Part shown: positions 1 through 62,035 of the stretch, in pieces | Layout of the letters: every line of letters starts with the position of its first letter | Position numbering within the stretch: the stretch's first letter is position 1 | Origin: Sipunculus nudus | Taxonomy: Eukaryota; Annelida; Sipuncula; Golfingiida; Sipunculidae | Direction: 5' to 3' | Length of the DNA stretch: 64,000 bases | Assembly (NCBI GenBank): GCA_026874595.1 | Contig: CM049316.1 | Location: 30,921,339 to 30,985,338, forward strand | Translations under genes and position numbers: made by a program | The notes under the pieces: model-generated | Told to the model about the DNA's origin: nothing | What the model saw: only the letters and a program-made list of their open reading frames with translations | Database searches by the model: none

Positions 1-426
1 TTCCCTTTCCAGATGATAACCCTTTTTAATATATGTGACCAAGGAATAAGAGCCCTAAGAAATGTGCCATGGTTTACCATACTGCATGGTAGCATCACAG
101 GTGAGCTGTGTTTGCCAAAACAATTGGGGCCTTAATACAAATGAATACGCCAACAGTGGCTCTTGGCCAGGAAAAAAACTTGCTACTCTATCTGGCATAG
201 ACCGACAATAAAAAAAAGAATTCTGAAAGCAAAGCCTTTGTGGAGAATTGATGATCCAGATTAATTTTAAAAATTAATGGATTGTTCCTTACCTTTACAT
301 AATTTTGTCAAAATCTGTTCATTAAGTTTTGCATAAAGTTTCTCACAGGCAAAAAACTAACTTACCAAGGGGTAAATAGTGTAAGATGTTTTTAACAAAG
401 AACTTGAGAAGCAATATGTAAACATG
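1..426. other. no gene seen
   Basis: AT-rich sequence with no convincing open frame, splice-bounded exon or repeat boundary. It directly precedes a ~500-bp dispersed repeat. Confidence 0.5.
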
Positions 427-917
427 AAAGGGGCCCAATCATATATAAGGCATGTTTAATTAACATGAAAAATAACTTCTTCCCATTTAAATAAATCTTT
501 ACATACCAAAATATTGTTAGCTTCCTCCTGTACACGAGTGTTGTAAACAGTGGACGATCACAGGTGTCAACAAAAAGACAATTTGTGTGGGGCCATGTGC
601 ATCACGGGGCCGCAACACAATCAGGAGACGCCTGACTGACTTGGGCCCAGAAATTGGAATACATGTTCCCGCTGGCTGAAACATCTCGCATTGCTGCTCA
701 TATTCAGACCTCCAGTCATACGGCCTTGTATGGTAAACAGACATGTAGACTGTGTCTACCAAGATGCAGAGCTATAACAAGGTGTTAAACTGTTGTATGC
801 GAGGTATTGAGACTGTGTGCTTGGATTGTTTTGCTTGGAAATTCTTTTATAAAGCCATTTTAACTGAACTGATATAGAGAAAGAACAAGCATCATATTGC
901 TCCTGATCATGTCCCTT
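427..917 (+). mobile_element. ~490-bp MITE with AAAGGG ends, copy 1
   Basis: Begins AAAGGGGCCCAATCA and ends with an imperfect inverted version (CTGATCATGTCCCTT). The same ~490-bp sequence recurs at 3370-3869 and 9803-10303 (both reversed) and, split by an insertion, at 5433-8532. The interior encodes nothing recognisable. A non-autonomous terminal-inverted-repeat element is the simplest reading. The superfamily is uncertain; copies flanked by TTAA hint at a piggyBac-type element. Confidence 0.65.
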
Positions 918-1184
918 GAAGCATTTGTGGTGACACGTACTGGCACTTTGACCATGTTGCTGCTTCGAATGTAGGTCTAAACTAAGGTTGTAATGAACAT
1001 CCCGACTGTGTTGAGATTTCTCTACTGCAGTATTGTGAGTTCAAAAATCTTATACGAAACCTTATTTAAGCCAACTGACAATAATAAATAGTAAAGAATG
1101 AATAAAACAAGTCTTTTATAAGATGGAACTTAATCTTATATTTCGCTTCAAGTAATTTGCTACATCCTCATTGGTACTGGGTAA

Positions 1185-1358
1185 AATCCTGTGGTCTAAT
1201 ACTAAATGTCAGGCCTTCAGTAAGGGTACCTTGTAAAACCTGTACTCGGACCCCAGATACTTGTGGTGTAGAATCCTGTGGTCTAATACTAAATGTAGGG
1301 CTTTCAGTAAGGGTACCTAGTAAAACCCAGACTCGGTCCCTAGACGCGCACTCCACAG
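1185..1358 (+). repeat. two-copy tandem duplication, 87-bp period
   Basis: The sequence starting AATCCTGTGGTCTAATAC at 1185 is repeated at 1272 with a few substitutions (both copies share CAGTAAGGGTACC). The period is 87 bp, divisible by three, so the frame stays open across both, but nothing suggests it is translated. Confidence 0.7.
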
Positions 1359-2013
1359 TAATAATTTTTGTGTTCAAATGTTCCTGGGAGAAATTATTTC
1401 CATCACACCCATGCCATCTTTACTCATTTGTCGGAGTCCCAGTTCGAGTCGGTAAAATCAAACATGCGGTGTAGATGTTACAGATAATATGAGAAAACAG
1501 TCGTATTATATTCTAAAAGAGTAAACAGTAGAGCATCTAACAAACGTTATATTGTTATGAAACAATCTATACAATATATATAAGCTGTTGTTCTGGGGTT
1601 GGCGATTATTACTTTGGAGTCCAGGGTCCAAGTCCGAGTCCCAGGTTTTACCAAGTACCTTCAGTAAGGTGCAAATATGCATCTGAGATGCTCAAAACCT
1701 GTTTGAGATCCAGGGCGATGTGGTTCCATGGGTCCAAGGCAGTGGCATCTGGCTGCGCAGATTGATTATCAAAAGAGGCTCTTATCAAAGTCTGTGGCAA
1801 GTGCCTTTTATTTTAAGCTAATCAGCTCCAGATTTGCCTATTAAAATGCTTTGGTGTGAACTGTGCTTACAGCTTGCTATGGGCACCATTAACAAATCCA
1901 AGTTCTCTGGGTTACTTGTGGAGTAGATCATAGTGTAATTTTTGCAAGCACCTGAAAGGGATCAGTTTGAATGCAAATCAGAAGTCAAAATGTTAGTTGA
2001 ATCAAACTATTAA

Positions 2014-2812
2014 CAGGACTGGGGTCAAATACAGTTTGCCAAATACAAATTTATACAAATATGTTACGTTGTATCAACCAAGTACAAATACAAGTGAGTG
2101 ATGTTGAATACAAATATTAATACAAGGCACCAAATACAAATATGCAAATGATTAGTTAGGCCAAAAAAAAGGTATGGTTCTCAGGCACCATGCGTGTCAA
2201 TTTAAACCCTGCATCAAAAATTTTTATTTAGATTTTTGTCTGTCAAGAAGATAGATTAAAACAATTAAATTTTCTGATTATATTACCTTTGTTATGTTGT
2301 GCTTTTACCTGTTCAGCAAAAAATTTTGTTATTATCATGCTTTTCCCTGATCATATGACATTTTAATCGAAAAATACAAGTGAAGGTAAAAAAAAAAAAA
2401 TCTCCCACCTGCACTGCTTTCTGAAAAAGTCCCTGAGAACCATCCTTTTTTTTTCGCCTCACACAGAAAGTTTATTCCTTTTCAGTACCAAAGATATATA
2501 TTTCATAGGTACTCATAATGAATGCTGGTATTCACGTATCAGAATTTGTACTCAAATAATATTGTCACTACAAATTCTACAAAAAACAGTTGCATTGAAT
2601 GAACAGAAACACTAGAAACTGCCACTTGTGTCGTTCAGGAGTTGGGCAGTACACACATAAGTCAAATTCAGGAGAAGACCAGATGCGCTTAGCATTTGAC
2701 AGATATGAAAATATATTTAAATTTATTTATGCCGTGTTCCATCAAATACATCAAATATTGAGCTCAAATACAAATACAGATATCTTAGCAATATTTAAAA
2801 TTTTTGCCTGAA
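2014..2812. repeat. CAAATAC-rich element, hAT-like end
   Basis: Starts near CAGGACTGGGGTCAAATAC and is filled with CAAATAC/ACAAATAC motifs at 2030-2160 and again at 2740-2780. The left end resembles the CAG...GGGGTCAA termini of the hAT elements elsewhere in the window, with a different subterminal motif. I found no matching right terminus or target-site duplication, so this is probably a truncated element. A MITE at 2155-2461 sits inside it. Confidence 0.35.
2155..2461 (+). mobile_element. ~290-bp MITE, GGTATGGTTCTCAGG family, copy 1
   Basis: Left arm GGCCAAAAAAAAGGTATGG followed by TTCTCAGGCA; right arm is the near-complement (CCCTGAGAACCATCC plus T-run). Three other copies lie at 29859-30131, 42966-43260 and 59757-60042. 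The interior carries TCAAAAATTTTTATTT and an AAGATA block shared between copies but no protein. Terminal inverted repeats are about 30 bp. Confidence 0.75.
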
Positions 2813-3016
2813 GAGTTTACACACTTTAAACATGGGATTGCCATGGGGGTATAAGACTAAAGAGACATATACTGTATGAGTTTTGGTATTTTTGTTCTTT
2901 GAAGTATATAGAACTTAACCACACTGTATTTAAGTGTATTACTATTTAAATAGATCAAGATCTCCACTTCCAGTAAATTGATAGAATCTCACTGTGTATC
3001 CTTAACAGTTCCTAAG

Positions 3017-3300
3017 ATGGCAATAGGAGATGCAACAGACAAAAAAGTCACAGCTTCCGTCCCCATGACAACAGGAGTTAAGGAAAATGAGGAAGGGGAA
3101 CCTTCAGTTGCCATGGCAACATCAGAGATCTTTCAGGATGACTTAGAGGACCAACCAGAACTGGGCGAGTGCAGCATCACCCCAGCAGATGATGATGAGA
3201 TGGAAGAGTTTGGTGACATCGAGTTACTGATGAAAGTAGAGCCCGAGGAAGGAGCTGAATGCTACCCATGGTGTACCGAGGATGATCCAGTTCTCGAACA
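3017..3300 (+). CDS. transposase-derived protein, exon 1 (acidic N-terminus)
   Basis: Encodes residues 1-94 and two bases of codon 95. ATG 3017 is the first methionine after a splice-acceptor-like TTAACAG ending at 3008, so an untranslated or further coding exon may lie upstream. The exon stops at a consensus donor, GTAAGT at 3301, in phase 2, matching the acceptor before 11241 exactly; the join creates glutamine and reads on into the large exon. The segment is strongly acidic (DDDEMEEFGD, EPEEGAE) and has no visible zinc finger, although relatives of this family usually start with a BED-like CxxC...H zinc finger. That this exon belongs to the gene rests on the frame-perfect splice sites and on the open, coding-like sequence. 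Confidence 0.65.
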
Positions 3301-3369
3301 GTAAGTCAGATACAGCAAGATTACTCTATACATTTCCATCCTCCTGGGAGCTAAGTCCAAAGCTTGGTT

Positions 3370-3869
3370 AAAGGGACATAATCAGAAGCAATATTATGCC
3401 TATTATTTCACACTATCAGTTCAGTTTTGCTTGATATAAAAGTTTCCAATCAAAACCATCCCAGCACACAGTCTCAGTACTTCGCATACTGCTGTTTAAC
3501 ACCTTGTTATGGCTGTGTGTGTTGGTACACAGTCCACGTGTGTCTGTTTACCATAAGAAGGCCATGTGACTGGAGGTTTGATTGTGAGCCTCAACACACC
3601 ATGTTTCAGCAAGCAGGAACATGTATTACATTTTTTTTTGCAAAGTCAGTCAGGACATCTCCTGTTTGACATGTTATGTGGCCGGGGGACATGCGCGCTG
3701 TGTTTATTTTGACACCTATGATTGTGCCCAGTCCATTCTTTTATCGCTTGTTTACAGGAAAAAGCAAATGGTTTCAGGGTAATATTTTGCCAGGTATAAA
3801 TTTATTTTAAAGGGAAGAAGCTATTTTTCGTGTTAATTCAACATGCTTTATAGGTGATTTGGCCCCTTT
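3370..3869 (-). mobile_element. ~500-bp AAAGGG MITE, copy 2 (reversed)
   Basis: Starts AAAGGGACATAATCAG and ends GATTTGGCCCCTTT, the inverted ends of the 427-917 copy. Shared internal text includes the TGTTTACCATAA block and the GGAACATGTATT block. It lies 70 bp downstream of exon 1 of the transposase-derived gene. Confidence 0.65.
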
Positions 3870-5432
3870 CAGCAGAGACCTTGTTTCAGTGGGCCTCCTT
3901 GTTTGTGTTATAGTGAATTTTGATTTTGCCATGATTATTTACATGCATAATGATCATGGAGTGTTTCATCACTTCCTGCAGACTGTTGATGCCACCTGTA
4001 TTCTGACCTGGGGTCAATTCAAATTTTTCAATTCCAATTCAATTCCAATTCAAGAACCTGTATGAAACTTTAGTTCCAATTCAATTCAGTTTAATGGACA
4101 AAAATATCAATTCCAATTTAATTCAAATTATTTTGATTCAATTCAAATTCAATTTGCAATTCAAAAAGTTGCAATCATTATAATATACTTTTCTTTGGTG
4201 TGGAACAAGTATTATCACAGGAGTTCTATAACTTTTGCATTAATACACAACTAACAGTTTGTTCAGATTGGTTGAGATTGTGTCAAAACTAAATGAAATG
4301 TCAGTAACTATGAGTTTTACCATTGCATGTGGTAAGTCATAGCAGCCAGACATATTTACTTCTTTTCCTCCGCAATTATTCCTCAAGATCAAGTAAACTG
4401 CCTTAATTTGGATAAAGGTTTATTTGGATTTCAAATGAGTGGCCATTTTCATCCTGTGCCATTAATGTATATGCAAATACTGTGGGTACCTCTATGTTCA
4501 AGAGGGTTTCAATTATGCAGAAAAGGGAAATCATCACAAAAATAAAACCTTCATGAATGAAAGATTATATCGTCAAAGGCAAGTCAAATCTCCAATATTT
4601 TATTTGAGAATGGACCTTGTATTTTACCCATTATTCACATATTTTATCACATTTTCCAAATGATAAACCACAAAAACTAAATGTCCTTAAGATAAATATT
4701 ATTAATTGGCTGATGGATTATTCTTCAGCTTATTTTGTTTTGTCAGATCATTAAAATGGAACCCTTGTGAAACTATAAACTAAGTGAAAATTGCTAAATT
4801 TAAACATAAAGCCAATCATGGTATTCTTTTTTGGGTGACAAAAAACATTAAAGTTCTCATAATCATGGGGGGGGGGGGGGAGTGAGGGGGAATGATGACT
4901 GTTACGTCCACTTACAAAAGCAAGGTCAGCAGACTTAGTGCTTGAATGAGCACTCATGTAGCATATAATTTTAATAATAATAATAATATTTAGTATTTAT
5001 ATATTAGATTTTACTGATTTTAGTCATCATAGACTAGTACACTAATCTATGGGATGTACTTTGATATCTCATAGCTGTTGCTTGTTCTAGCCAAGTAAAG
5101 TGCCCTAGGTAATTAGAACCACTGGGCCAGCAGAGCAGCTCAAGGCACAATGGATGCTATAACAACAGGCATATCCTGGAAAGTCAGTGGACCAGAACAA
5201 GTCAGTTCAGTATTATCTGAATACATCTTTTATGGCACAGCAGGGAATGGGAAGTAATTTGTAGTCATATATATTACTCTTACCCTTTGCTATCTATTAT
5301 CATTACTATTACAGCTCAATTTTATATCTTTTATAGTACTATTACTTAGAAAAGGTGAAAATAAATATATCCCATCTCTAGTGTGCTGAAACTGCTGATA
5401 CAAACAATTCAGGAACAGTGAGTAAGAGCATT

Positions 5433-8400
5433 AAAGGGGCCCAATCACCTCTAAAGCATGTTGAATTAACATGAAAAATAGCTTCTTCAATTTAAAAAAA
5501 ATTGTATCTGCCAAAATATTGCCCTGAAACCGTTTGCTTATTCCTGTAATCGAGCGTTAAAAACAGTGGACTGGGCACGATCACAGGTGTCAACATAAAC
5601 ACAGTGTGTGCTTCGCCCAAGCCACAACAAGTGTCAATCAGGGTATGCCCTGACTGAATTGGCCCGAACATTTAATACATGTTCCTGCTGGCTGAATCAT
5701 CACTTTTTGGGTCTAACAATCGGACATCTGGTCACATTTCCTTTTTAGCTCAGCTGACTATAAGTCATCTGAGCTATAGTTGTGGTCCATTGTCTGTCGT
5801 CCGTCCGTCTGTCCGTCCGTAGATGTGGCATGTTTTGAAAACGTAAGACTAGGAATCCAAAATTTGGCATAATGTTAGATGTCCCCAAGATCTCCTACCA
5901 AGCCGAAAACTGGGTTTTTGCAACTTCGTTCCTTTGAGAAATTAAGGAAAAACCTCAATTTTTATAAAAAACCTATTTTCACACTTCAGGACTGCCTAAT
6001 ATCAAAACCACTCATCTGTTTTTCCTCATATTTACCATAAATATTCCTCTATATAGTTCCTATGTACATGCCAGAAATTATGTCTGTATTATTCAATTTA
6101 AAAAAGTTATGGGCCCAAACATAATGCATTTTGTAAAAAATCATGAAAGATATTTGATCACTTAACACAAAAAATGTTAAAGCTATGGACCTTTTTTCCA
6201 GTAATATAACTTTAATTAATCAAAATTAAATTGTATACCCAAAATTAGATGAAAATCTTTTAAATTTTTTAAAATATTAATAAAAATAAAAATTGGTACT
6301 TTAAATTTTGCCCAACTTTGACCATGGCACGTTTTTTTCCTGTAAATGCTGTGGATTTAATTTTCACAGCATGTTTTTGTTAGCATTTCAACTGTTAACA
6401 CCAAAAATTTGAAACAGTGTGATCAAAAACTGTAGATTTTAATCAAGTTTTCAAGCACCATGTAACATATGGTTTACATCAAGCTAGTGTTATGCAGTTT
6501 GCAAGAGCTCAGCTCCCCAGCTTCAGCTCTAAGTTCCTTAAATTCGGCATACAGTTAGATGTCTCCAAAATCCCCTACCATACCAAGAATTTGGTCACTA
6601 GGACATTCGAGATATTAATGAAAAACTTCATTTTTCCATTAAAAACCCATTGTTACACTTCAAGACTGCCTAATATCAAAACCACTGATCTGACTTTAAT
6701 CATAAATAAAATACATATTTTTCATTCTCTATGCACATGCCAGAATGATGTCAGTATTGCGTAATTGTTTAAAGTTATGGGCCCAAGCATAATACACTTA
6801 GTAAAAAAATCAAGAAATATATTTACTCCCTTACCAAGGGCATTGCTGAAGCTAGAGATTTTTTTGTCAGGGATGTAACATTATTTAATCAAGATTCAAT
6901 TGAATACCCAAAATTAGTTCTGAATTTTTCAAATTTTATAAGTTATTAGTATAAATATAAAATTAGTACCTTAAATTTTGCCCAACTGTGACCATGGCAC
7001 GTTTGTTTCCCGTGAGCACTGTTGATATAATTTTCATATCATGCACACATAAGGATTTCAGCTTTTTAGTTTAGAAAGCTGAAAGAAATTGGCCAAAAAT
7101 TGTAGCTTTTATTAATGTTTTTTATGAGACCCTGTCAGACTTTGGCTCTCTCCAGCCCCTCTTGAGTCACCTGTATGTTGACCTTTCATCAAATTATGCA
7201 CGCTTGAGGCGAGGCATACAGGGAATCCAGGCAGCTTATGGCAAGCCACAGTTGATCCAGGTGTCCAACCCAACTCATCTAGTAGTTTTAACCAACAACA
7301 TAACAATAAACAATAAATTAATAAATTTTTATTGGTTTTTAATAACAAATTAAAGAAAAATAGAAAAGGAATTTGTTAGTTTATAATAACAGGAAATTAA
7401 CTTGCAGTTACTGATGATATAAGAATCTTGTATCGATGGGTAGAATGTCACATATTCCAAATAACACCATGCAGTCACCTATGGCATTTTTCAGTTCAAT
7501 TTTAATGATAAAGAAGTAAATCATATTATTCATTACTAATCATTAGGGATCATATGAAGGAAATTAATGATAGACAAAGATGCAGTTGATAATATTAATC
7601 TAGATTCCTACTGTGTCTAGTGTGTACATTGATGTGAAATTAGTCCAAAATGAATTTTTTACAGTTATTTTTTAATATAAATAAAAGCCATAAAACCAGG
7701 TACTTCTGATTATTATTTAAATTTTTGAATTTTGTATATTCTGGATTCTCAACATCATTGTTTGGTGAAAACTGAATAAATACCAGACATGGTGCGAATA
7801 CTTTGTAATTGTATTTAAATACGAATATGATTATGTACTCCATTATAAAAGTTCTTGCATAAAGAATGGGAATTCAGGTAAAAATGAAAGTGTATGAATA
7901 CTCGTTCAAATACTTTCAAAATGTATTCATGAATGCATTCATGAATATATTCTTTAATATTATTTTAATAATCATATCAGTTGTATTTCATTTTAAAAAA
8001 TCATATGATTCTCTTATTATTTTTAATAAAAATTATATTTGGGACAATATTTGTAATTTTTTTTAATAAATAGTTAAACTCTTATATTATATGTTCTGCT
8101 TATAAGTTATATGGCCAAGTCAAAATCTGTGTGACAATAGCACTCCATTTGTTAATAAAATAAATGAAATCAATCCTCTTCCCTGTCTCCAAAGGTACTA
8201 TCAAAATCATACATAAGCTAAACAACAACAACTCATAATACAGCTTATATTTATTACCACACATAACCAGCATGTGCCTCATTTCTAAATAATATTTTTT
8301 TATCATATATAACAGCTGAGCGCCGTGACCCATAGGTCCCTTGTTTATGGTAAACAGCCACACATGTACTGTGTTAACCTACACACAGAGCCATAACAAT

Positions 8401-8532
8401 GAGTTAAACAGCTGTATAAGTGGTACTTTGATTGTGTGTGGGAATGGTTTTGCTGGGAAACTTTTGTATAAAGTGCACTGAACTGATAGTGTGAAAGAAT
8501 AGGCATAATATTGTTCCTGATTGTGCCCCTTT
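5433..8532 (+). mobile_element. AAAGGG MITE, copy 3, split by a later insertion
   Basis: The left half (5433-5745) matches the start of the 427-917 copy. The right half (8346-8532) resumes it, with TATGGTAAACAG and the conserved end GATTGTGCCCCTTT. TTAA occurs at both outer edges (5431-5434 and 8531-8534), compatible with a TTAA target duplication, although the element's own A and T ends make that partly automatic. The break is filled by the hairpin-ended element 5746-8345. Confidence 0.75.
5746..8345 (+). mobile_element. hairpin-ended element, subfamily A, copy 1
   Basis: Begins TAGCTCAGCTGACTATAAG, whose first 32 bases fold into a 14-bp stem with one mismatch, followed by a GTCC/GTCT microsatellite (5790-5822). 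It ends CAGCTGAGCGCCGTGACC followed by CATAGGTCCCTTGTT. Inside are two diverged ~550-bp tandem units (about 5830-6480 and 6490-7130) sharing a TAGATGTC-CCTACCAT block and CTAATATCAAAACCACT. The rest (7140-8310) has no counterpart in the other copies. Boundaries are secure because the two halves of a MITE abut it. Short asymmetric inverted ends, a microsatellite core, a 3' palindrome and insertion at a T-run resemble Helentron/HINE non-autonomous elements; that assignment is inference. Confidence 0.7.
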
Positions 8533-8829
8533 AAAGTTGTTATCATACTCCTTGTGTCACCCATGAGAGGCATTTGTGTTTGATTTTAACCAAATACTGC
8601 ATGGCTGATCTTTAAACTGACCTTGAGTAACTTCCAATGATCGATACTTTGGGAAATATGAGATCGGGAACTTTTGTTGATCAATACAAAGATGCCTGTA
8701 CACTTCAATTCCAATTCCATTCCAATTCATTTCATTTTCACTTTATTTAATTAAATTCAATTCCAATTCAATTCAGAATTGACCCCAGGTCTGCCTGTAT
8801 TTTTACCAATTGTTTCACATTTTTCCAAT

Positions 8830-9540
8830 TTTTTGAGACGTCCATTTCAGGGCACAAATCATAACTGTTGTACCTAAAATCGTATAACTTGACACAAGGG
8901 AGGTCCATGAAGATTTTCCATGGAAACATATCTCTCTTTTAACCATATTCTCCAAGCTATGGAGCTTATAAATACCCCTCAGAATAATTGAAAATTTGAT
9001 ACGGAAGCAGGGCACAACTCATAACCATTTGACCTAGAATCTTTTAACTTGTTACCTCTAACTATGAGACAGTAAAATGACAGCAATTGTATCAGTTTGT
9101 CAATTGTGGTTTCATCTAGTGTCCTGAACATCATATATGATTATTGATCATGACTATAGTTTTGTCAGTTCCTGAGGACTTTGGTGCCATCAGTATTTTT
9201 ATATCTTTCCTAGCACACTGATAAATCTAAACCAATGGTGTCAGCTTTTCAACTGTAATTTCATCCAGTGTCCGGAAACAGGGTGTGCTTTTTGAAAAAA
9301 AAAATTGTTTCATCAGATGTTGAAGACTAGTTTGAACAAGTTGCAAATGTTCAGTCATGTCTAGTATCACTATTTTGCCTTGAACCATCAACTGATGTGC
9401 TTTATGCATACAAATCTTCCTGCCCCTCCCCAAAATTGTAACAACATTTGCAATTATTTCCTTCTAAATAAGATAACAGTTGTAAAAATTAGGCCATTAT
9501 CTAATGCTTATCAACTGAGCGTCATGACCCATGACCCATT
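8830..9540 (+). mobile_element. hairpin-ended element, subfamily B, 5'-truncated
   Basis: Contains the subfamily B block CAGGGCACAAATCATAAC and a degraded 3' end, CAACTGAGCGTCATGACC. The 5' hairpin is missing. It adjoins the right TSD of the hAT element, which may have inserted into this copy: sequence left of 3995 (GATGCCACCTGTATT) resembles the GGCGCCACCTGTATT block of subfamily B. Confidence 0.45.
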
Positions 9541-9802
9541 GTAAAACTCCAGGCCACCCACTTCTTGTTACTACAGCCCTGCCTGGGTAACCTTAAAGGT
9601 GATGCAACACAGGTTGAGCACCCCAGCTTTCCAAGGTGTAAAGTTATTCTCATGTCTTCCATCCCCTCCGCCCCCCCCCCCCAATTAGGTAATTAATTAC
9701 AAAACTTAGGAAGGTATCATGTTTTCCTCTTGGTTTCTTTGTTGGTTTATATGTTGGCAACTTTACCCAAACAGTTATTAATGGATTATGATGAAATTTT
9801 GT

Positions 9803-10303
9803 AAAGGGTTTTAGGGAAAAGAGCAATATTATGCCAATTATTTCATACTATCAGCTCAGTTTTGCTTTATGCAAAAGTATCCCAGCGAAACCGTCCCAGC
9901 ACACAATTTCAGTACTTCCTCATTTATGGCTGTTTAACAGCTTGTTATTGTTCTGCATGTTGGTAAACACGGTCTATGACTGTCTGTTTACCATAACAAG
10001 GCCTCATGACTGGGGGCTGAATGTAACCTGCAACACGCGATGTTTGAGCCAGCTGGAACAAGTATTGCATATTTTAGGCCAGGTCAGTGAGTCAGGGAAT
10101 CTCTTGATTGACACGTTGTGGCCTGGCAGATGCACTTGCTGTGTTTATGTTGACACATGTGATCATGCCTGGTCCACTGGTTTTAACACTCGTTTACAGG
10201 ATTAAGCAAACAGATTCAGGACATATGTTGGCAATTTATTTCAAAGGGGAGAAGTTATTTTTTGTGTTGATTCAACATGCTTTATAGGTGATTGGGCTCC
10301 TTT
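9803..10303 (-). mobile_element. ~500-bp AAAGGG MITE, copy 4 (reversed)
   Basis: Same orientation as 3370-3869. Shares AGCAATATTATGCC near the start, TCCCAGC-rich and TGTTTACCATAA blocks in the middle, and GATTCAACATGCTTTATAGG near the right end, which closes in GGGCTCCTTT. Confidence 0.65.
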
Positions 10304-11240
10304 AAGGTATCACTAAAGAAACAATCTGGATCAGAATTTGACAACCACATCTAGTTTTGCCAAATATAAAGTTTAATAACAACTCCTACCTCTCTGCAAA
10401 GTAGTCCTGTGAATGATGTGACGTAGGTGCTGAGTGCATCTTTGTCAGCTTTTGTTTAATGAGCCCACATTCACAGGATACTATAAGTACTCAGGATTTG
10501 GCTAAACATGGTTATATGTTTTAACTATGCTAGGAAAGTCTAGTTTTCTGGGTTACATTGTATTTGTCAAGCTTTCAGTGAAACAATTGCAAATGTTACA
10601 GAATCTACTTTACTTACACGTTGAGTCAAATAAGAATATGGCAGATTTTGCAAAAATGTCTACAACTCAGTCAGTTTTTAGGCTAGAGAGGTCTAGTGAA
10701 TGGACTGCAAGTTTTGTCAAATCTCACAACATCTGCTGTCAAATCAGAATTAGCAAGATTTAACAGGATTACCATTAACTCAGTCAATTTGTTTAGCTAA
10801 ACAGGTCTAGTTACTACTTTTGGTAGCATTTCATATGCTGTCAGTCACTTGAATTCAAGTCTCATCATTTCTTATCAGATCAGCAGTCAAATGACAAGAG
10901 GTGAGATTTACCAACATGCTAATAACTCAATTTACATTTTTTGCTAGAAAGGTCTGGTTGTCTGCATGTTGTGGCATTTTGTAAGCTCTACCTGTTGTAT
11001 CATTTACAGGTGTCTGCTGGCAGGGCTGGCGACTGTGTCATGATAACATCTTTTTGCATTTTTAGTTTGATGCATGCATTGAGTTTGGGTTGCTTCAATG
11101 TGTTGGATGCCCAGTACTCTTCGTACCAGCCACTTCATTCCACTTGTCTTCTGATGAATGTATTATGTTGTTCATGTCTTTGATGCAAATGATCATTGTT
11201 TTGGCTGTATTACTTAAAATTTACTACTTTGCATTTGCAG
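10304..11240. other. intron sequence, no gene seen
   Basis: Last part of the intron of the transposase-derived gene. No repeat boundary or coding exon is recognised. It ends at a pyrimidine-rich acceptor, TTTGCATTTGCAG, at 11228-11240. Confidence 0.5.
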
Positions 11241-13284
11241 GGCAGTGCCTTTAAAGCCGAGTGAGGAGATGAACCAATCTGTGTCCCTGGATGACACCTT
11301 GCGGGCAGAATTATTATGGACCATGAATGTTGTTTATGAAAACTGTTCATATAGTACATGTGAAGGATTACCACAATTATTTGCAATGATGTTCCCCGAC
11401 TCGGCAATAGCTAGAAGTTTCAATTTAGATGAACGCAGGTGTGACTATCTTTGCACATTTGGCCTTGCACCCTATTTTCTAGATTCCCTGAAGATGTCTG
11501 TCAAGAAGGAGGACCATGTAGTGCTGCTCTTTCACGAGTCTTTGAATCACATGACCCATTCCAAACAGATTGACATTCATGTGAGAATGTGGAGAAACAA
11601 CAGGGTAACAACCCGCTACCTCAACTCTCGGTTCATTGGTCATGGTGCATCAGGAGGTATGGGTAATGATGGTGTAGAGTTAAACAAAGTTCTTCAGGTA
11701 TCGATGGATGGGCCAGATGTCGATTGGCGGTTCCATGATGTTATGCAGGAAGATATAGAATCCAAGTTCAAAGTTGGTCTTTTTAACATCGGCAGTTGTG
11801 GCCTGCACATTGTCAATGGGGCTTTCAAAACAGGTGTATCTGCCAGTGGCTGGTCCATTGAGAACTTGCTTTCTGGCTTATATTGGTTTTTCAAAGATAG
11901 TCCTGTCAGACATGAAGACTACAAGGCTGTCACTGGCTCTGAAACTTTTCCATTGAAATTTGTTCACCGCAGATGGCTGGAGAATGTTAAGGTAGTGGAA
12001 CGAGCACTTTCTGTGTGGGACAATATATGCATTTACGTTAAGAAAACAAAAGAGAAGGATGCAATTCCAACTTGCAATTCATGGAAAGCCATAGAAGCTG
12101 CAACTCGGGACCCATTTGTCACAGCAAAACTGAATTTTTTCTTGAGTGTGGCCAAGATAATCACACCATTCTTGACTATGTATCAGACAGACAAACCAAT
12201 GATACTCTTCCTTAAAGAGGATTTGGAAAATCTGATTATGAACCTCATGAAGAGGTTTATTGATGATGAAGTACTTAAGGCGGCCAACACCACAGAGAAA
12301 CTGATAAAGTTGGATCCAAAGGACAAGAATAACCACTGTGATCCCAAATCTATAGATGTTGGTTACATGACAGATAGAATACTTCGAAAGACCATGAAAG
12401 TGTCAGAAGTAGCACTGTTGTCGTTTTGGATGGAATGCAAAGCATTTCTTGTGACACTAGTTGCAAAACTTCTGGAGAAGGCGCCAATCGTGTACCCTTT
12501 AGTTCGAGCAGTTTCCTGCCTTGACCCAAGGGTCATGAGATCAACAGAGACGGAAGTTCTGCTTGCTTCAATGAAGGATGTTCTGGAAATGTTTGTCCGG
12601 AACGGACGTTTAAGGGAGTCCATGTGTGAGGACGTTATGACAGAATTCAAAGGTTTTGTGGACACTGTAGGAAAATGTTCAGCAAAATTTAAGCATTTTG
12701 ATCCAACTGATGCAAACATGAGGGCAGATGAACTCTATTATGAACATATGGCCAAAGATGACAAGTACAACAAGCTCTGGGGTGTTGTAAAAATGATCTT
12801 GATTTTGTCTCATGGACAGGCAACTGGAGAAATTGGGTTATCAGCAAGCGGACAAAATGAGGGTGATCAAACGTCTGAGCAAACATATGTAGCCCAGCGA
12901 ATTGTGCGTGATGCCATTAAACTGTCCGGTGGCGTTTTGGAGGTAACCATCACAAAAGAAATGCTAGTCGCTGCAGCGGGAGCAAAACAAAAATACCATT
13001 CATATCTTGATGAACAAAGAAAACTGAAGGAATCTAAAGAGGTGAAAAACAAGAAAAGACCTATTCAGGAAGAAATTGATGAACTTAAGATCAAGAAAGC
13101 CAGGATAGAATCTGACATAGAAGACATGACAAAGCAAGCAGATATTTTAGCAGATAAAGCTGAATCTACTGGAGAGCTGGAATTAATAGCACGGTCCAAT
13201 AGCTTACGAAGGTCTGTAAAAAATATGAACAAGGATCTTCAGATTGTCGAGGCACAGTTAGATGAGAAGAGCGATCAACTTTGA
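11241..13284 (+). CDS. hAT-like transposase-derived protein, main exon
   Basis: Encodes residues 95-775 of the joined protein after the phase-2 splice from 3300; the in-frame GTG at 11245 is not needed as a start. It shows the features of an RNase-H-fold, hAT-like transposase family that is widespread, mostly unnamed, in aquatic animals: the VSMDGP segment (Asp near residue 251), the NIGSCGLHIVNGAFK helix start (~265-285), the HRRW tryptophan (~340), NFFLSVAK and YQTDKPM segments, LSHGQAT near residue 620 and a charged, coiled-coil-like tail (~690-775). Two expected key positions differ: the usual acidic residue before ESLN is histidine (FHESLN, residue 193), and the C-terminal ER pair reads EI (GEIGLS, Glu 625). 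No stop or frameshift interrupts 679 codons. That suggests a non-transposing, perhaps domesticated, nuclear protein; function unknown. Confidence 0.85.
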
Positions 13285-14209
13285 GAGTAACAGACATTTA
13301 ATATCTGCTACACTGAATGTAGAGATTTTTAGATTTCCTCTATTCCCTTTTTCATTTGCTTTTTGGTTCTGGTATCTGGTAAGAGGAAGTGTGTTGTATA
13401 TTTGAATAAGTCATTCCTTCAATTAGCCTGACTCTGGCAGCAACGCTTTCAGAGACCTTTTATTCAGAGACCTTGATCTGCTCATATGTCTATTCCATGA
13501 ATAATGAACAAGCCCGGATGCGTTAGAGGCAGACATATATCAGCCAAACAGCCACAACCTAACGAATGTAAACTGTATACAGTAGTCACAACTGTTCACA
13601 CACTGTTTGAACAAGAACACGTGCACAAGAAATGGCTTAGGTAGGGTTACAAGCCTTTGCTTTTCCGGTTTCTCGATGCTCTTCAGTGAACACAAAACGT
13701 TTGATCTAAAAATAGCGCCAAATGTATAATATAGAACTCTAAATACTGGCTAAGGCAGAGCACATAATGCGTTTCTTTTTTTAACGGTTTGGTCAAACAC
13801 ACGTATTACAGTTTCATGATATTGTCATACGAAATACCAATGTTTTATGTCACGGTATATGTTATGACAGGTACCAAAATCTTGTAGTTTTCTTTCTCAG
13901 CTTCACTGTAGTTCATCTTTTGATTTGCTAATATTTGTTTCTGTGTGTATGGACATTTTCACGAGGTAACGTTGTGAAACTCTGACTGAAGTTAACTTTT
14001 CACCCTTTTCAACAGGTAGCTGACCAAGGTGTGGAGGGTTTGCACTTGCCCGTTGTATCTTTTTTTGGAATAATTTTTAAAATCAAATACGATGTAAATA
14101 TTTTTTTGAGGCACATCGCCCCACTGCTATAAAATCGAGACATTTTAAACTCGGTGTGTTGGCTTTGTGTATGGATATAGTGACATGAGAGGTCTTGCTC
14201 TTTAATAAA
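13285..14209 (+). other. probable 3' UTR
   Basis: Follows the TGA at 13282. No repeat element is recognised and no coding frame is present. AATAAA at 14204-14209 is the first good polyadenylation signal I see, giving a UTR of about 0.9 kb. Confidence 0.45.
14204..14209 (+). terminator. candidate polyadenylation signal
   Basis: AATAAA hexamer within TTTAATAAACTC, about 0.92 kb after the stop codon of the transposase-derived gene, same strand. Cleavage is not demonstrable from sequence alone. Confidence 0.4.
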
Positions 14210-14659
14210 CTCGAGCTGGTCATACCATGGTCAAGTAAAATTTGTAGTGCATTCATACCTGGGCTGGATCCCCATACTGATTAGTCGTATCCCCAGATTG
14301 AAAATCATGGATATTGTTGTTCAACCCGAAGTCACGGATCTCTTTCAGATTTTACTTGTGAGTGACCTTAACATTGAAAAGATGTTTCGTTGAAAATTAT
14401 ACAAAACGGTAAATGACCCAAGAAAGACTGGATTGATCAGGTTGACCGAAGATATCTGACTTGAATTGCCTTGTACAGGAGCCACCTATTATTTTTTCCT
14501 CGAGTTTAATAACTCCATCACGGTCGCATGAGAAAATTATGAGCAATATAATCAATAATAATAATAAAGAAACACGGTCAAGCCAGTTTGTTCAATATTT
14601 CACAGAAATAATCTTTTATATCATCTCTCTCAAGTTTGTTCAAATGGTTCAAGTTCAGT

Positions 14660-15870
14660 GAATTTTTGCCGAATTACAGGAAGTTGAACCTAGTCATCTG
14701 TCCGAAAAAGCATACTAAAATTACAATCTCAGAAACGGCCGGAGCTATGATCACCAAATTTTCTGCCAGTGTTGGTCACATGAGCCATATATGAAATTCA
14801 GGTATTGGTGGTCACCTGCATTGACCTTTTTTTGTTCGGGGGTCATTGGTCATCTGTACATTAACCCATAATTTCTCAGAATAGCAGGAACTACCATCCC
14901 CAGTTTTTATGCAATAATCTGTCATATATCAAATGTGGGATTCAGCTTATGAAAAAAAACTGCATCTTTTATTATTCTAGATATTTTGATAAATAGTTTA
15001 TGAATATGTCAGCCTGAAAAAATGCATTTTAGCCAAAGTCTTTCAGTATGTGTAAACAGATTTGCCAACAGGCTAAGATTGTGTCTGTATATTTAAATAG
15101 GTTAAGAAACTGCCAACTGTTTCAGATTTGGCAACAGATCAAGAGTTCATTCAGTGCAGCCAGATATAGGTCAAGAGTTCAGTCAGTGCAGCCAAGCACA
15201 AGGCATGTGATCCCCTCATGGGTGACGTGAACACCTCATGGGCACCATGTGATCACCTCATGGGTGTCATGTCTCTCAGGGCTGCATGTAGAGCCAATCT
15301 ATTTATAGCTTTGGCAGACTGCCAACTGAATCAGATTAGGCAACAGGTCAAGAGTTCACTCAGGGCAGCCAGGTACAGGTCAAAAGTTCACCCAGTCTAG
15401 CCAGGTGCAGGTCATGAGTTCACACAGTGCAGTAGCCTGAGCAAGCATATTTGTCACAGTTCACTCGGGGCAACTGCCTTTCTCCCCTAAGCGTGGTCAG
15501 CCCCATGCATCAGACTAATGTAAGTTTGATGTATTGGCCTGATAATTTGACCTGTCTATGCGTCTTTGATGAGTTTCTCGTTCACAAGACAGGTGTCACC
15601 ACCTACAATGACTTTTGCACAGTGTGTGACTTTTGTGTCTGCTTATTTCTATAGAGGAATTTGATATATCATCCTGAAATTGGGCATATTTATACCTATC
15701 GAATAGCTTTGTCTTATACAAGACTGGTGGTGCCACCTACAAAAATTTTTGCATAGTGTGTGCCCCTACTTATTTCTCAGGAGGGGTTTGATATATCAGT
15801 CTGAACTTGGGCATATGTATATATCTCTGATAGCTTCGTTGTATACAAGACTGGTGGTGCCAGCTACAAT
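14660..15870. repeat. degenerate dispersed and tandem repeats
   Basis: No gene. 15115-15430 holds imperfect repeats of a GGTCAAGAGTTCA / GTGCAGCCAG motif and of CACCTCATGGG. 15570-15870 holds two or three ~150-bp units with the ACAAGACTGGTGGTGCCA type of sequence, related to the GGTGGCGCCACC units of the Helitron-like element at 46195-47628. Confidence 0.5.
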
Positions 15871-15876
15871 CATTTT

Positions 15877-16685
15877 TAGCTCAGCTGACTGTAAGTCAAC
15901 TGAGGTGTAGGAATGGCGCTTTGTCCGTCGTCCATACGGATATCCGGCCATCCATTAGCAGGGCACAAATCGTAACAGCTGGTCCTAGAAACTTCTAAGT
16001 TATAATCCAGGGAGGTCAATAAAAAATCTCCTTGGAAACCTGAAATAAGGGCACTGCGACCTATATCCTTTGAGCTACGGGGCTTGAAAGTCCCCCCAGA
16101 ATAGTAAGAAATTTGATACAAAACATCCACTATCTTGATAATTAATGCATGGTTTGTCATGAATCCTGCCTTGAATATTGACCATGACTAGTTTTGTCAG
16201 TTCCTGAAACGTGGTGGCGCCACCGGTATTTTTTCTATTTTAACAAATATTTTTCTATTTATTTACTAAAAATAAACTTGCTTCAAACTTGATTTAATAA
16301 TGACCAACCACATAAGTAAATTCATCATGATTACCAGGGTCCAGCAATCTAAGTTGAAGGTCACATAAGCCACATCTTTAAAAAGATTGTGGATGCACTC
16401 TAAATCAAACTTTTCATCCTGAAATCTCCAACGTTCACACATGGCTTACTTGCCTAAAGTTAGGAAACCTGTAGAATTTGAGGTTATCTGGTCAGAGGTC
16501 AAGGTCACTTTTTAAAAGATTGTTACAATAATCCTAATGCTGCAAGTTCAAGGATATTAAGTTCTAAGATTTTTTGGTTACAAGGTCATTGGTTAAGGTC
16601 ACAGGACTGTCATTCTGAAAAATTTCTTTCAAAATATCCTTATAGACAAATTCAGCTGGGTGTTGAGACCCATGGGTCCCTAGTT
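15877..16685 (+). mobile_element. hairpin-ended element, subfamily B, complete
   Basis: Starts TAGCTCAGCTGACTGTAAG with its complementary arm AGTCAACTGAGG, then the GGAATGGCGCTTTGTCC block. Ends TTCAGCTGGGTGTTGAGACC then CATGGGTCCCTAGTT. Length about 0.8 kb. Contains GGGCACAAATCG and GGTGGCGCCACC. The end has the palindrome GACCCATGGGTC directly before CCTAG. Confidence 0.65.
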
Positions 16686-17880
16686 GTGTTGTGTGCACCC
16701 ATGCCAGAATTTCAGCTGTGATGTTTGTGTAATTGTTTCTTATTCAAAATGTTTAGTACCTGCATTGTTAATATACATGAGAAGTAATGGTCCAGCATTG
16801 AGGCATTATACCTGGTGTATTTCCCAATGCACAGGTTCGCATTAGGACTGTAGGCCTTGTTTAATGGTAACACACAACGAAACGGTATGAATTTCAACAG
16901 GGCACAAGACGTTTATTTTAAACCAGGAAGTCAAAGTTCACCTGGACACATATTGGTGTAAAAACTGAAGTCTGGGTCACAGTGCCATATATTTCCTGAA
17001 GACAGATTTCAGCATACCAGCTTTTAGAGAGACATACTACTGAAAGTGTAAAAACTTCAAGGCCGATTTCGGAGGAATGGCAACAGGACATTCATCTTAT
17101 CAGTAATAAGTGTTAAATACCTAACGGCCTTCTTGATGGAACGGAAATTACGTCTACACGGAGGGGCCACTATGGGGAGAAAGTGTCAATAGGTTCATGC
17201 CCTGATTAGTACAGGTGATAAACGGCCTGTTCAGAATATCCGAGGAGAAAGTCGTAATTCAAAGAAAGCAGGTTTTCAAAGAAACATTCATGGGGACATC
17301 TAGGTAAACAGGCATGTCTTGGGAGAGCACGAGGAATGGCCATCTTTTTTGGTATGGCAACTAACATTAAGTGCTTTGTGTAAGCGTGTAGAATTTTTGA
17401 CACAGTCATGAAGAAGAAACGTGCTTGCAACTAGATCACGCTCTGAGAACAGTTGGATGCAGAAATTTTAAAAACTTCAGAGTGACAATTTCTTTGATAC
17501 TGCGGACTGCCTGAGTGTAACCTCTGTGAACAGGTTATTCTCTATTGCCTTTCGCAAACTTTATAATTAATAAACACAAAAGTTCAATTTTGCTAGATCT
17601 TGCATACTCTTAAAGGTTGTGAAGATGCAATGCAATTTTCTTGAAGGGAGTCTCATACAATGAATTATCAAAACTCCCAAGACAAGACATTGACGACAGT
17701 CCAATGCACAAATTTACAACGAAAGGTTTATTGCCGACAGTAAATAAACCACTTGGATTTTTATCCAAAGATGCACACTTGAAGGAAGAATAATGGAGAA
17801 AAAATTACAGAGGCCAGTACCAGAAGGGAAAAACTAGACGACCATAGGTTGAGCGCTTGCCGGATATGATGTGGATACAG
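16686..17880. other. no gene seen
   Basis: Unassigned sequence between two repeats. Short open frames (up to about 75 codons) show no recognisable domain or splice context. Confidence 0.4.
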
Positions 17881-19330
17881 TCCAGTGCATGAACAATAAT
17901 ATAGAGGAAGTTTGTGAAGGAAGATAGGACCAAATTTCATAGTTTTTTTTACAGTTTTTGAAGGAAGATAGGACCAAAATTTACAAAGTTATGAGGGAAA
18001 TAGGATTTTGACCTTGACCTTAACTTAAGCCTATTTAAAAATACACATGCAGTTTCCAAAAATCGCCTCGATATATGATATATGTAAGGTACTCCTGCAG
18101 GGTTATTCCTGCAAAACTATGGCCTGTAGAATGCTACAGGTAAGGCGCAAGAACCAACAAGAAGGCGAAATGGAGGGCAACTGGCAGACAGCCATAGTGA
18201 CAAAAAGAAGAGGGCTAGACCAGTTGACTAGACCGCGTCATGAAGAAGACTAAGAAGAAAATGAGCCATAGGTTGTGAAAATAGGACCAATATTAACAAA
18301 ATATGAGGAAAAATAGGATTTTGATGTGTTTTGATAATTTTGACTTATATAAATAGTAAAAATTGGCTTTCATAAATCGTTCCGATATATAATACATATA
18401 TAATAATTTACAAAGTGATTCCTGCAGAACTATGGGCTGTAGAATGTTATGTGTAAGATGCAAGAACCAACAAACAGGCGAAATTGAGGAAACTGACAGA
18501 CGGACAGACAGACACATTGTTACACAAATTGTAGGGAAGATGACTAGACCAGGTGATGGAAAGGGTAAAGAGGAAGAAAATGAGCCATAGTTTGTGAAAA
18601 TAGGACCAATTTTGACAAAATTATGAGGAAAATAAAATTTTGACCTTTGACCTATTAAAATAATATACATAAGACTTCGAGAAAACGTTCCTATTTACGA
18701 TGTGTGTAAGATACAAAGTGATTCCTGCAAAACTATTTGCTGTAGAATGCTATATGTAAGACGCAAGAACCAGCATGCAATCGAAATTGAGGACAGTTGA
18801 AAAACAGGCAGACACACTGGCAAACTGTCACAAGTTTGAGACCAGATGACCAGACCAAGTGTCGGAGCGGATGAAGAGGAAGTAATGAGCTATAATTTGT
18901 GAGAATAGGACCAATGTTGAAAAAATTATGAGGAAAATACGATTTTAATGTGTTTTGATGACCTTGACCATGACCCTTGACCCATAGAATCAATAAACAT
19001 AGGACTTCAAGAAACCATTCCGCTTTTCATTATGTGTAAGTAACAAAGTGATTCCTGCAAAATTGTGGCCTGTAGAATGCTGTATTTAAGAACCAGGAAG
19101 CCTTCGAAATTGAGTACAACTGACAAACAGACAGACATACTAACAAACTGAAATTAGTTTGAGACCCGATGACAAGACCAGATTATAAAGAAGATCAAGA
19201 GGAAGAAATGCGCCATAATTCGTGAAGACAGGTTTAATATTAACGAAGTTATTACGATATTAAAATTCCAACGTCTTTTGATGACCATGACCTTGGACTT
19301 TGACCTTTAATGACCAAAAAACAATAGGCT
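17880..19330. repeat. ~300-bp imperfect tandem units rich in GACAGACAGAC
   Basis: About four diverged units (near 18080, 18400, 18710, 19030) each hold AAGTGATTCCTGCAAAACTA, a CTGTAGAATGCT block, an AAGAACCA block, an ACAGACAGAC run and a GTTTGAGACC/ATGACCAGACC block. Related text is found at 48240-49625 (shared GACCATAGGT...CGCTTGCCGG). No protein is encoded. Confidence 0.6.
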
Positions 19331-20723: not shown

Positions 20724-21155
20724 TTTGATCCTATGGCCAAAACCAGTTCATGTGGCTCTCTGCCTTGTTATCGTGGTGTGATCTTATTGTCAAAACCGGT
20801 TCAAACAGACAACTGGCATGAACATCATGATGTCATCCTATTGTCAAAACTGCTTCAAAAAGCTTTCTGGCATGAACATCGTCATGTGATCCTATTGTCA
20901 AAACCGGTTCAAACAGCTTAGTTGCATAAATATCGCGATGTGATCCTATTGTCAAAACCGGTTCATACAGCTTAGTTGTATAAATATCGCGATGTGATCT
21001 TATTGTCAAAACCGGTTGAAACAGCTTAGTGGCACAAACACCGCGTTGTGATCCTATAGTCAAAACCGGGTCAAACGGCTAAGTGGCATGAACATCGTGA
21101 TGTGATATCATTGACAAAACCGGTTCACACAGCTAACTGTTCCTTTACGATTCCG
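20724..21155 (+). repeat. 54-bp minisatellite with AACCGGTT cores, eight units
   Basis: Units begin near 20724 (degenerate), 20778, 20832, 20886, 20940, 20994, 21048 and 21102, all exactly 54 bp apart. The shared text is GTGATCCTATTGTC then AAAACCGGTTCAAACAG. AACCGGTT is intact in five units (20778, 20886, 20940, 20994, 21102) and altered in the rest (AACCAGTT, AACTGCTT, AACCGGGT). A ninth core, at about 21599-21630, lies at the start of the second GPCR 3' copy. The period is a multiple of three, so the frame stays open on both strands, but translation is not suggested. Confidence 0.85.
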
Positions 21156-21598
21156 TCTGTATTAGCCCTATTCGGACCTGTGACGTATATTTTTGGTGGT
21201 TTCGAGACCGGGCAACTATTAGCAAAAACCGCTTGTCGTTGTCTTGGAAAAATTTTGCTGCACTGCATGGATGATCTGCATATGCGGGTCTTTAACATTG
21301 CGAGATACGCCTGACGCATGGTGCTGTTAATCGAAAAGTAGACTGCTGTATTTGCTGTAGGGGCCGCTCTTATGATTATTGCACTGGCTATATTATATAA
21401 CCTCACTGTACCCGTATGATTTCCGGTAAGTTTTATGACACCGGGCAGTACATAAGTCAGCATTAATACGACAAATATGACAAACCCGGTCTTGGTCACC
21501 TGGTGCTTCTTTTTCCTCTTTTCTTTTTGAATCTCTTCCCAGGCCCGTGTCAGGTGACCGTTGGATACTGGCGCGATGCTGTAGTTTTTAGATACTTG
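21104..21598 (-). pseudogene. tandem partial copy of the GPCR 3' end
   Basis: A 495-bp unit is repeated head to tail, the second copy (21599 to about 22096) being the 3' end of the intact receptor gene. The partial copy encodes the same intracellular loop 3, TM6, TM7 and C-terminal tail through the same stop, with a few substitutions (for example IKLTGN for IKLIGN and RLYNIAS for RLCNIAS), and remains in frame. It lacks TM1-TM5 and any start, so it cannot make a receptor. Both copies begin at a minisatellite core (GACAAAACCGGTT), suggesting that unequal recombination at these repeats made the duplication. Confidence 0.85.
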
Positions 21599-21619
21599 GA
21601 TATCATTGACAAAACCGGT

Positions 21620-22792
21620 TCAAACAGCTAACTGTTCCTTTATGACTCCGTCTGTATTAGCCCTATTCGGACCTGTTACGTATATTTTTGGTGGTTTCGA
21701 GACCGGGCAACTATTAGCAAAAACCGCTTGTCGTTCTCTTGGAAAAATTTTGCTGCACTGCTTGGATGATCTGCATTTGCAGGTCTTGAACATTGCGAGA
21801 TACGCCTGACGCATGGTGCTGTTAATCGAAAAGTAGACTGCTGTATTTGCTGTAGGGGCCGCTCTTATGATTATTGCACTGGCTATATTACATAACCTCA
21901 CTGTACCCGTGTGATTTCCGATAAGTTTTATGACACCGGGCAGTACATAAGTCAGCATTAATACGACAAATATGACAAACCCGGTCTTGGTCACCTGGTG
22001 CTTCTTTTTCCTCTTTTCTTTTTGAATCTCTTCCCAGGCCCGTATCAGGTGACCGTTGAATACTGGCGCGATGCTGTTGTTTTTAGATACTTGGATATAT
22101 GAATTTCTCACTGCGCGGTAAATAAGTAAATAGAACACAGTTGTGAGTAACGGACAAGGTATTTGCACCAACACCAGCTGGATCGTACGTACAATTGCAA
22201 AGTCCTCCGTGTTAAGTCTGCAAGACAGGAACTCCGGTGCATAGTGCACCCTCCGGCGGGCACTGGCGAAACTAGGAATTAACGGAACCAGGGATAACAT
22301 GAATGGGGCTACCACAAGCCAGCGCGTGCCACATTTAACACTAAGCCTGTGAAATAAATTCGGTCGAACTACCTGCAAGTATCTCACAAGACCTGTGAAT
22401 TGTATACACAGTCCAGCGGTTGTGATGAAACAGTAATTTGCATAGACCTGTGCATGACACAAGTGTTCTCCAAAAGCCCAGTTTCCTTTGAGGATGGTCG
22501 CTATGCGTAACGGATAATCCAGTGGTATCATTAGTAAGTCCGACAGGGAAGCTACTGCAGCCAGAAAGTAAACCAGTCCATGCAGCTTTTTATTACGATG
22601 AACAATATGAACGGTCGCCCCTGTCCCCACACTGCCGGTTATCATCAAGATGATGTAGAGGGTGAGTGCCACCGATTTCGTGGAAGATGACAGGGGCTCT
22701 TCGTTCAAATCGGGAAAAATTGTGGTCACACTCTCATTTACAAATACACGAGAATCGTCTGCGGTTACATTCTGCGTTAAAATGCTTGCCAT
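21620..22792 (-). CDS. orphan rhodopsin-family (class A) GPCR
   Basis: A 390-residue single-exon receptor with seven hydrophobic segments. The N-terminus (1-40) has glycosylation sequons NVT and NES. TM2 has SLSDLLMIPLDYP; TM3 ends LVRYLQVV, a DRY-like motif with valine in place of the acidic residue. TM4 contains the conserved tryptophan (RWLVVAP); extracellular loop 2 has a cysteine (LSCRL) that can pair with the one before TM3 (EHLCHAQ). TM5 has a proline. TM6 lacks CWxP and reads LTYVLPG; TM7 reads NTAVY in place of NPxxY, followed by an amphipathic helix. The basic loop QKEKRKKKHQ precedes TM6. It should signal at the plasma membrane through G proteins; the ligand is unknown. I see resemblance to invertebrate orphan receptors only, not to a named subfamily. 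The start is the first ATG and gives a sensible extracellular N-terminus. Confidence 0.9.
   Translation of the reverse strand: MASILTQNVTADDSRVFVNESVTTIFPDLNEEPLSSSTKSVALTLYIILMITGSVGTGATVHIVHRNKKLHGLVYFLAAVASLSDLLMIPLDYPLRIATILKGNWAFGEHLCHAQVYANYCFITTAGLCIQFTGLVRYLQVVRPNLFHRLSVKCGTRWLVVAPFMLSLVPLIPSFASARRRVHYAPEFLSCRLNTEDFAIVRTIQLVLVQIPCPLLTTVFYLLIYRAVRNSYIQVSKNNSIAPVFNGHLIRAWEEIQKEKRKKKHQVTKTGFVIFVVLMLTYVLPGVIKLIGNHTGTVRLCNIASAIIIRAAPTANTAVYFSINSTMRQAYLAMFKTCKCRSSKQCSKIFPRERQAVFANSCPVSKPPKIYVTGPNRANTDGVIKEQLAV

Positions 22793-39604: not shown

Positions 39605-62035
<22,431 letters not shown>

Follow-up and report, generated by a model that had tools for sequence, protein, structure and literature searches.

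A 64-kb window of the Sipunculus nudus genome (64,000 nucleotides; GenBank assembly GCA_026874595.1, contig CM049316.1, positions 30,921,339 to 30,985,338, forward strand) contains a predicted two-exon gene for a 775-residue protein with an ordered set of hAT transposase motifs, in which, in the register we prefer, the first catalytic Asp is missing and a His stands in its place. The explanation we favor, and to which we give about an even chance, is that this is a hAT-derived host gene disabled for DNA cutting, probably one whose product acts as a noncutting regulator. The initial annotation of this DNA had proposed domestication on the grounds of an open frame and lost catalytic residues. 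The intact long frame, the loss of the first Asp, the failure of our scans to detect transposon ends in the stretches they covered, and the spliced acidic N-terminus all fit that proposal, with the amendment that one key residue appears to be lost, not several.

Structure of the gene

Joining the two exons gives a frame with no internal stops that runs on the + strand from an ATG at 3017 to the end of a TGA stop codon (13282 to 13284). The predicted donor, CA/GTAAGT after position 3300, and acceptor, TTTGCAG/GG before 11241 (slashes mark exon boundaries), both match the consensus as sequence signals. The join across the 7.9-kb intron is in the right phase at a CA/G codon, as had been annotated, together with the length of about 775 residues. 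Exon 2 contributes the longest stop-to-stop frame of the window, 688 codons against 390 for the runner-up; using the stop frequency of the intron (0.06), we estimate the chance of a 688-codon frame at a given start as about 4e-19. The G+C content is uneven across codon positions in both exons (0.64/0.37/0.45 in exon 1 and 0.49/0.34/0.42 in exon 2), as it is in coding DNA.

The start ATG has an A at −3 and a G at +4 and is preceded by an in-frame stop at 2951. Since a CAG ending at 3008 is acceptor-like, an intron in the 5′ untranslated region may end there, and an untranslated first exon is therefore possible upstream.

Catalytic positions

The residues essential in Hermes are reported to be D180, D248, R318, W319, and E572 (PMC6027215), and the hAT CxxH motif is described as required for hairpin formation (PMC4763223). 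Along the predicted protein, the corresponding motifs occur in the order H193, D251, C281-x-x-H284, R339-W340, and E625. Read in this way, only the first of the five Hermes-essential residues appears to be lost, through the His at 193, and D251, R339, W340, and E625 appear to be kept, as does CxxH. The FHESLN sequence in which the initial annotation had seen this His is present at residues 192 to 197. The claim of lost catalytic residues thus stands for the first Asp and fails for GEIGLS, which, as placed at residues 624 to 629, keeps the catalytic Glu as E625; we rejected on this ground the idea that several catalytic positions are eroded.

The ordered set, including H193 and the hydrophobic run preceding it, was matched by none of 20,000 shuffles of the exon 2 part of the protein, and the core motif order without the first position was matched by 11 of 20,000, figures that are flattering, since the widths of the gaps between motifs were set after the protein had been seen. 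When Hermes residues 176 to 216 were slid without gaps along the protein (735 positions), the register that places H193 on the first Asp ranked second by hydropathy correlation, eighth by BLOSUM62, and 23rd by BLOSUM45. Gapped alignments to Hermes run unaided (four per stretch) put E625 on E572 in three of four cases and matched CxxH and RW in two of four each. An alternative Asp, D176 (in FLDSL), also satisfies the loose spacing but sits before the strand-like hydrophobic run VVLLF. In a first, looser motif test (3 of 20,000 shuffles), the match started at residue 173 and not at H193, and for this reason we rejected it as evidence on that position.

The acidic N-terminus and the C-terminal coiled coil

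Exon 1 is strongly acidic (29 D/E against 4 K/R in 95 residues; pI, 4.05), which bears out the annotation of an acidic exon in the place usually taken by a zinc finger. It includes an MKVE sequence at residues 72 to 75, which we take to be a SUMO-like motif, and it had no Pfam matches. Nor is a BED-like finger visible: the pattern C-x(2-4)-C...H-x(3-6)-[H/C] occurred 0 times in the three + frames of positions 1 to 11400, in a scan that included a positive control and from which a finger interrupted by an intron would escape. Over the whole + strand of the window, the pattern occurred 8 times. Scored with a codon table trained on exon 2, exon 1 gave 0.56 bits/codon in frame, and its two remaining frames gave 0.17 and 0.16. 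The in-frame value was reached by none of 2,000 random windows of the same length.

Structure prediction was confident for a single part of the protein, a C-terminal coiled coil, where the block means of the predicted local distance difference test (pLDDT) were 66 to 91 from exon-2 residue 601 onward.

Transposon ends

Terminal inverted repeats (TIRs) with a target site duplication (TSD) around the gene had been named at the outset as one of the observations that would speak against domestication. We looked for exact 8-bp TSDs paired with 11-bp TIRs (at most 2 mismatches), comparing positions 1 to 3016 with 13285 to 19000 and positions 3301 to 11240 with 13285 to 19000. The scan returned 0 pairs in these stretches (the means of 20 shuffles were 0.1 and 0.4), and ends that lie outside them or have decayed would be missed. 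The best TSDs matched at 7 of 8 positions, on two TIR-like diagonals, one consisting of A/T only and the other, at 5758, bordering a dispersed repeat.

A proposed role

In the explanation we favor, exon 1 would supply an acidic N-terminus that replaces the DNA-binding BED finger, and exon 2 would supply a transposase body, presumably RNase-H-like, together with the coiled coil. Changing the first Asp of Kat1 (D310) to Ala is reported to have abolished both cleavage and target joining (PMC4763223), and for that reason a His in place of the first metal-binding Asp should block DNA cutting. The pocket-shaping residues D251, CxxH, RW, and E625 would remain. The protein would most likely work as a noncutting oligomer, in which the body and the coiled coil mediate pairing between its own copies or with related transposases and the acidic part contacts regulatory partners. 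If the gene is transcribed and under selection, as we suppose, the outcome would be either transcriptional regulation or the damping of active related transposases.

In a more specific version, a catalytically dead transposase body would have been fused to an exon that is acidic, activation-like, and possibly SUMO-modified. This animal lineage would have kept the product as a partner that regulates live relatives or acts on them in a dominant-negative way, with the pairing surface retained and the cutting residue and finger dropped. We regard this version as doubtful. If the gene is kept by the host, it would represent domestication of a hAT-like gene in which catalysis was lost cleanly through a single residue, and one could ask with it what use a transposase body has when it neither cuts DNA nor carries a BED finger. 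A young dead copy, on the other hand, would be nothing out of the ordinary.

Evidence weighing against a domesticated hAT gene

Several results tell against the explanation we favor. The first group concerns the hAT affiliation. In the unaided alignments, H193 and D251 were each placed on their Hermes counterparts in none of the four cases. No Pfam hAT model, the dimerization domain included, matched exon 2 or four sub-pieces of it at E values up to 10; the only Pfam matches were weak and of other kinds, in searches where the HMMER filters discard most matches above an E value of 0.1. A search of the Protein Data Bank (PDB) by sequence gave five matches, all at chance level. Residues 96 to 380 and 541 to 680 scored at shuffle level against two Hermes stretches (z = −0.57 to 1.08). 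Since these pairwise scores are no better than those of shuffles, homology rests on the motifs, and the description of the protein as hAT-like, which the initial annotation had given, is suggested by their order only. Two structure predictions, made without relatives, had low mean pLDDT values, 40.4 and 33.0. The less confident of them placed strands at residues 187 to 197, 202 to 213, and 216 to 222, in the order expected of an RNase H core, and at a pLDDT of 33.0 we do not rely on it. A helical middle likewise appears at low confidence.

A second group concerns exon 1 and the transposon ends. With a codon table trained on a G protein-coupled receptor (GPCR) gene of the window, exon 1 scored 0.17 in frame versus 0.19 and 0.16 in the other frames, so that its frame is not distinct, and 5.9% of random windows scored as high. 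TIR-like 16-mers (at most 2 mismatches) were in excess, with 30 and 61 windows in the two comparisons, against maxima of 24 and 44 and means of 10.6 and 32.2 in 10 shuffles. When merged, these windows formed 13 and 27 distinct diagonals (40 in all), none with an exact 8-bp TSD. We did not accept them as ends; many are A/T rich, some match repeats or simple sequence, and some do not fall into either class.

Searches for relatives were negative. The protein alone as the query gave no pattern match in viral contigs or in prokaryotic genome contigs, and a two-row alignment as the query gave 92 and 132 pattern matches in these two contig collections, among which there were 0 confirmed relatives. 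A literature search, partial in its coverage, found no description of this gene.

Alternative explanations

The main alternative, possible but on balance unlikely, is a fairly young and recently inactivated hAT-like copy that has had little time to decay. The Asp-to-His change would then be an early hit or an assembly error, and exon 1 would be either part of the element or unrelated to it. In many animals, the family to which the protein belongs is present in multiple copies. The loss of just one key residue is expected equally of a young dead copy, and an open frame can persist for a time without selection: in a neutral simulation (n = 500), frames were still open in 42% of cases at 1% divergence, 15% at 2%, 5% at 3%, and 1% at 5%, with 0 of 500 at 8% or more. 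From this accumulation of stops, it follows that the frame is either young or under selection. Vertebrate annotations are also reported often to mistake transposons for genes (PMC10641963). A young copy should nevertheless show its ends, for which the scan found no exact pair, and tblastn found no second copy of the gene in the 64-kb window, the sole other match covering 22 residues with an E value of 3.3. It would also be unusual for a young element to contain a large intron filled with diverged repeats.

We examined five copies of one such diverged interspersed repeat, at 425 to 923, 3365 to 3871, 5429 to 5747, 8339 to 8534, and 9821 to 10306, of which four lie within the intron. Pairwise Kimura two-parameter distances between them are 0.20 to 0.32 (9 of 10 pairs computable), and distances to the majority consensus are 0.06 to 0.12. 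These repeats favor selection on the frame only if the exon join predates them. They may themselves predate the join, which makes the argument from age conditional and is a further point against the explanation we favor.

Capture of a transposase by the host, in which a hAT-like open reading frame (ORF) landed downstream of an older host exon 1 and was spliced to it, is an unlikely origin taken separately. Because capture is a route to domestication, however, the probability we attach to it overlaps with that of the host-gene explanation itself. It would account for the single clean donor, the single clean acceptor, and the absence of BED-like finger patterns upstream, and host-transposase fusion (HTF) genes are described as having arisen in this way (PMC8290160). 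It is harder to reconcile with an exon 1 that lacks a Pfam match and with a neighborhood in which we recognized no adjacent host gene with other exons. The similar codon makeup of the two exons likewise hints at a common history.

The two-exon model could also be an artifact, with a real, transposase-like exon 2 to which exon 1 is not spliced and a protein that starts within exon 2 or in other first exons; we think this improbable. The window has 18 GTAAGT strings on its + strand, the first ATG within exon 2 is at residue 105, which would permit a shorter protein without exon 1, and exon 1 is not distinguished by the GPCR-trained codon score. Against an artifact, exon 1 has an open frame of 94 codons (chance, about 0.003) that begins at an ATG in good context and ends inside a donor at its very end, and the phase of the join is right. 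Finally, a transposase that is still active and uses the His or a neighboring acid for the first Asp is very improbable: four of the five key residues are still present, but mutation of the first Asp is reported to kill Kat1 activity (PMC4763223), and no ends were found in the scanned stretches.

Comparison with known systems

The protein resembles Hermes, the Musca domestica hAT transposase (PDB 8edg and 4d1q), in the order and rough spacing of its motifs (193/251/281-284/339-340/625 here and 180/248/265-268/318-319/572 in Hermes). It differs in that the first Asp is a His, no BED finger was found, there is a C-terminal coiled coil, and the overall score is not above that of shuffles. Kat1, a domesticated hAT transposase of Kluyveromyces lactis, is a hAT-derived host gene, as we propose for the gene described here, and has the D-D-E, CxxH, and Trp positions; unlike the protein described here, which should not cut DNA, Kat1 is reported to retain the full triad and a BED domain and to cut (PMC4763223).

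The ZBED genes are hAT-derived and described as regulators, and one of them, C7ORF29, is likewise listed without a BED domain (PMC3606216). The DDE triad is reported to be conserved in ZBED genes and BED domains to be present except in C7ORF29 (PMC3606216), whereas the protein described here lacks both the first Asp and the finger. The Pfam searches and the finger pattern scan found in our gene neither of the features by which ZBED genes are recognized, BED finger(s) and a hAT dimerization domain. Transposable element-derived factors, ZBED included, have been reported in molluscs (PMC10027918).

Imagin, a malacostracan gene derived from Ginger1, is similarly described as multi-exon and transposon derived, with catalytic residues lost and no inverted repeats (PMC12863088). 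It belongs to another superfamily and has lost D and E, compared with one D here (PMC12863088). A single copy, synteny, and ratios of nonsynonymous to synonymous substitution rates (dN/dS) of 0.05 to 0.13 are documented for Imagin (PMC12863088). HTF genes share with our predicted gene a splice join between a non-transposase N-terminus and a transposase ORF (PMC8290160). Reportedly, it is typically the DNA-binding part of the transposase that was captured in the host-transposase fusions described by Cosby et al. in 2021, whereas here the transposase body is present and no finger was found.

TABLE 1 Positions of the features of the predicted hAT-like gene in the window
Feature	Position	Strand	Remarks
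Acceptor-like CAG (its AG)	3007..3008	+	8 nt 5′ of the ATG; sequence TATCCTTAACAG/TTCCTAAGATGG
Exon 1, coding sequence	3017..3300	+	Residues 1-95, acidic N-terminus; codon 95 split by the intron
Intron (predicted)	3301..11240	+	7,940 bases; GTAAGT...TTTGCAG
Exon 2, coding sequence	11241..13284	+	Residues 95-775 and stop; transposase-like body, C-terminal coiled coil
H193 codon	11533..11535	+	Hermes D180 (first catalytic Asp) in the preferred register, lost; in FHESLN, 192-197
D251 codon	11707..11709	+	Read as Hermes D248, kept; VSMDG vs Hermes FVTDRG
C281-G-L-H284	11797..11808	+	Read as the CxxH motif (Hermes C265/H268), kept
R339 W340	11971..11976	+	Placed at Hermes R318 W319 by motif order and two of four unaided alignments, kept
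E625 codon	12829..12831	+	Placed at Hermes E572 (catalytic Glu), kept; second letter of GEIGLS, 624-629
C-terminal coiled coil (predicted)	13042..13281	+	About residues 696-775; structure model, weak Pfam coiled-coil matches below cutoff

Other features of the window

The window also holds a single-exon ORF for a rhodopsin-family GPCR on the − strand (21620 to 22792; 7tm_1, E = 3.8e-17). A tandem duplication of 495 bp with 97% identity repeats the 3′ part of this ORF (region 21104 to 22792). Pieces of a gene like that for polynucleotide kinase 3′-phosphatase (PNKP) lie on the + strand between 42262 and 50783. They comprise an FHA-like piece (42262 to 42600) that is below the Pfam cutoff and matches the aprataxin FHA domain in the PDB (E = 0.0024), together with a pair of PNK3P pieces, of which the first exceeds the Pfam cutoff and the second falls just short of it. 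With the GPCR ORF and the PNKP-like pieces present, the window is an ordinary animal gene locus. The style of its repeats may resemble that of molluscan DNA. No Rfam family reached threshold in it.

There is a 105-bp tandem repeat within an open frame at 43372 to 43585. A 1.4-kb repeat with GTCC runs and an internal duplication is present at 5740 to 7121 and 51295 to 52709, and its two copies are 76% identical. On the − strand, the segment from 62999 to 63241 has a CENP-B_N match above the cutoff (E = 1.5e-4) together with HTH_Tnp_1 matches; it may be what is left of a pogo-like transposase, or a CENPB-like gene may begin here.

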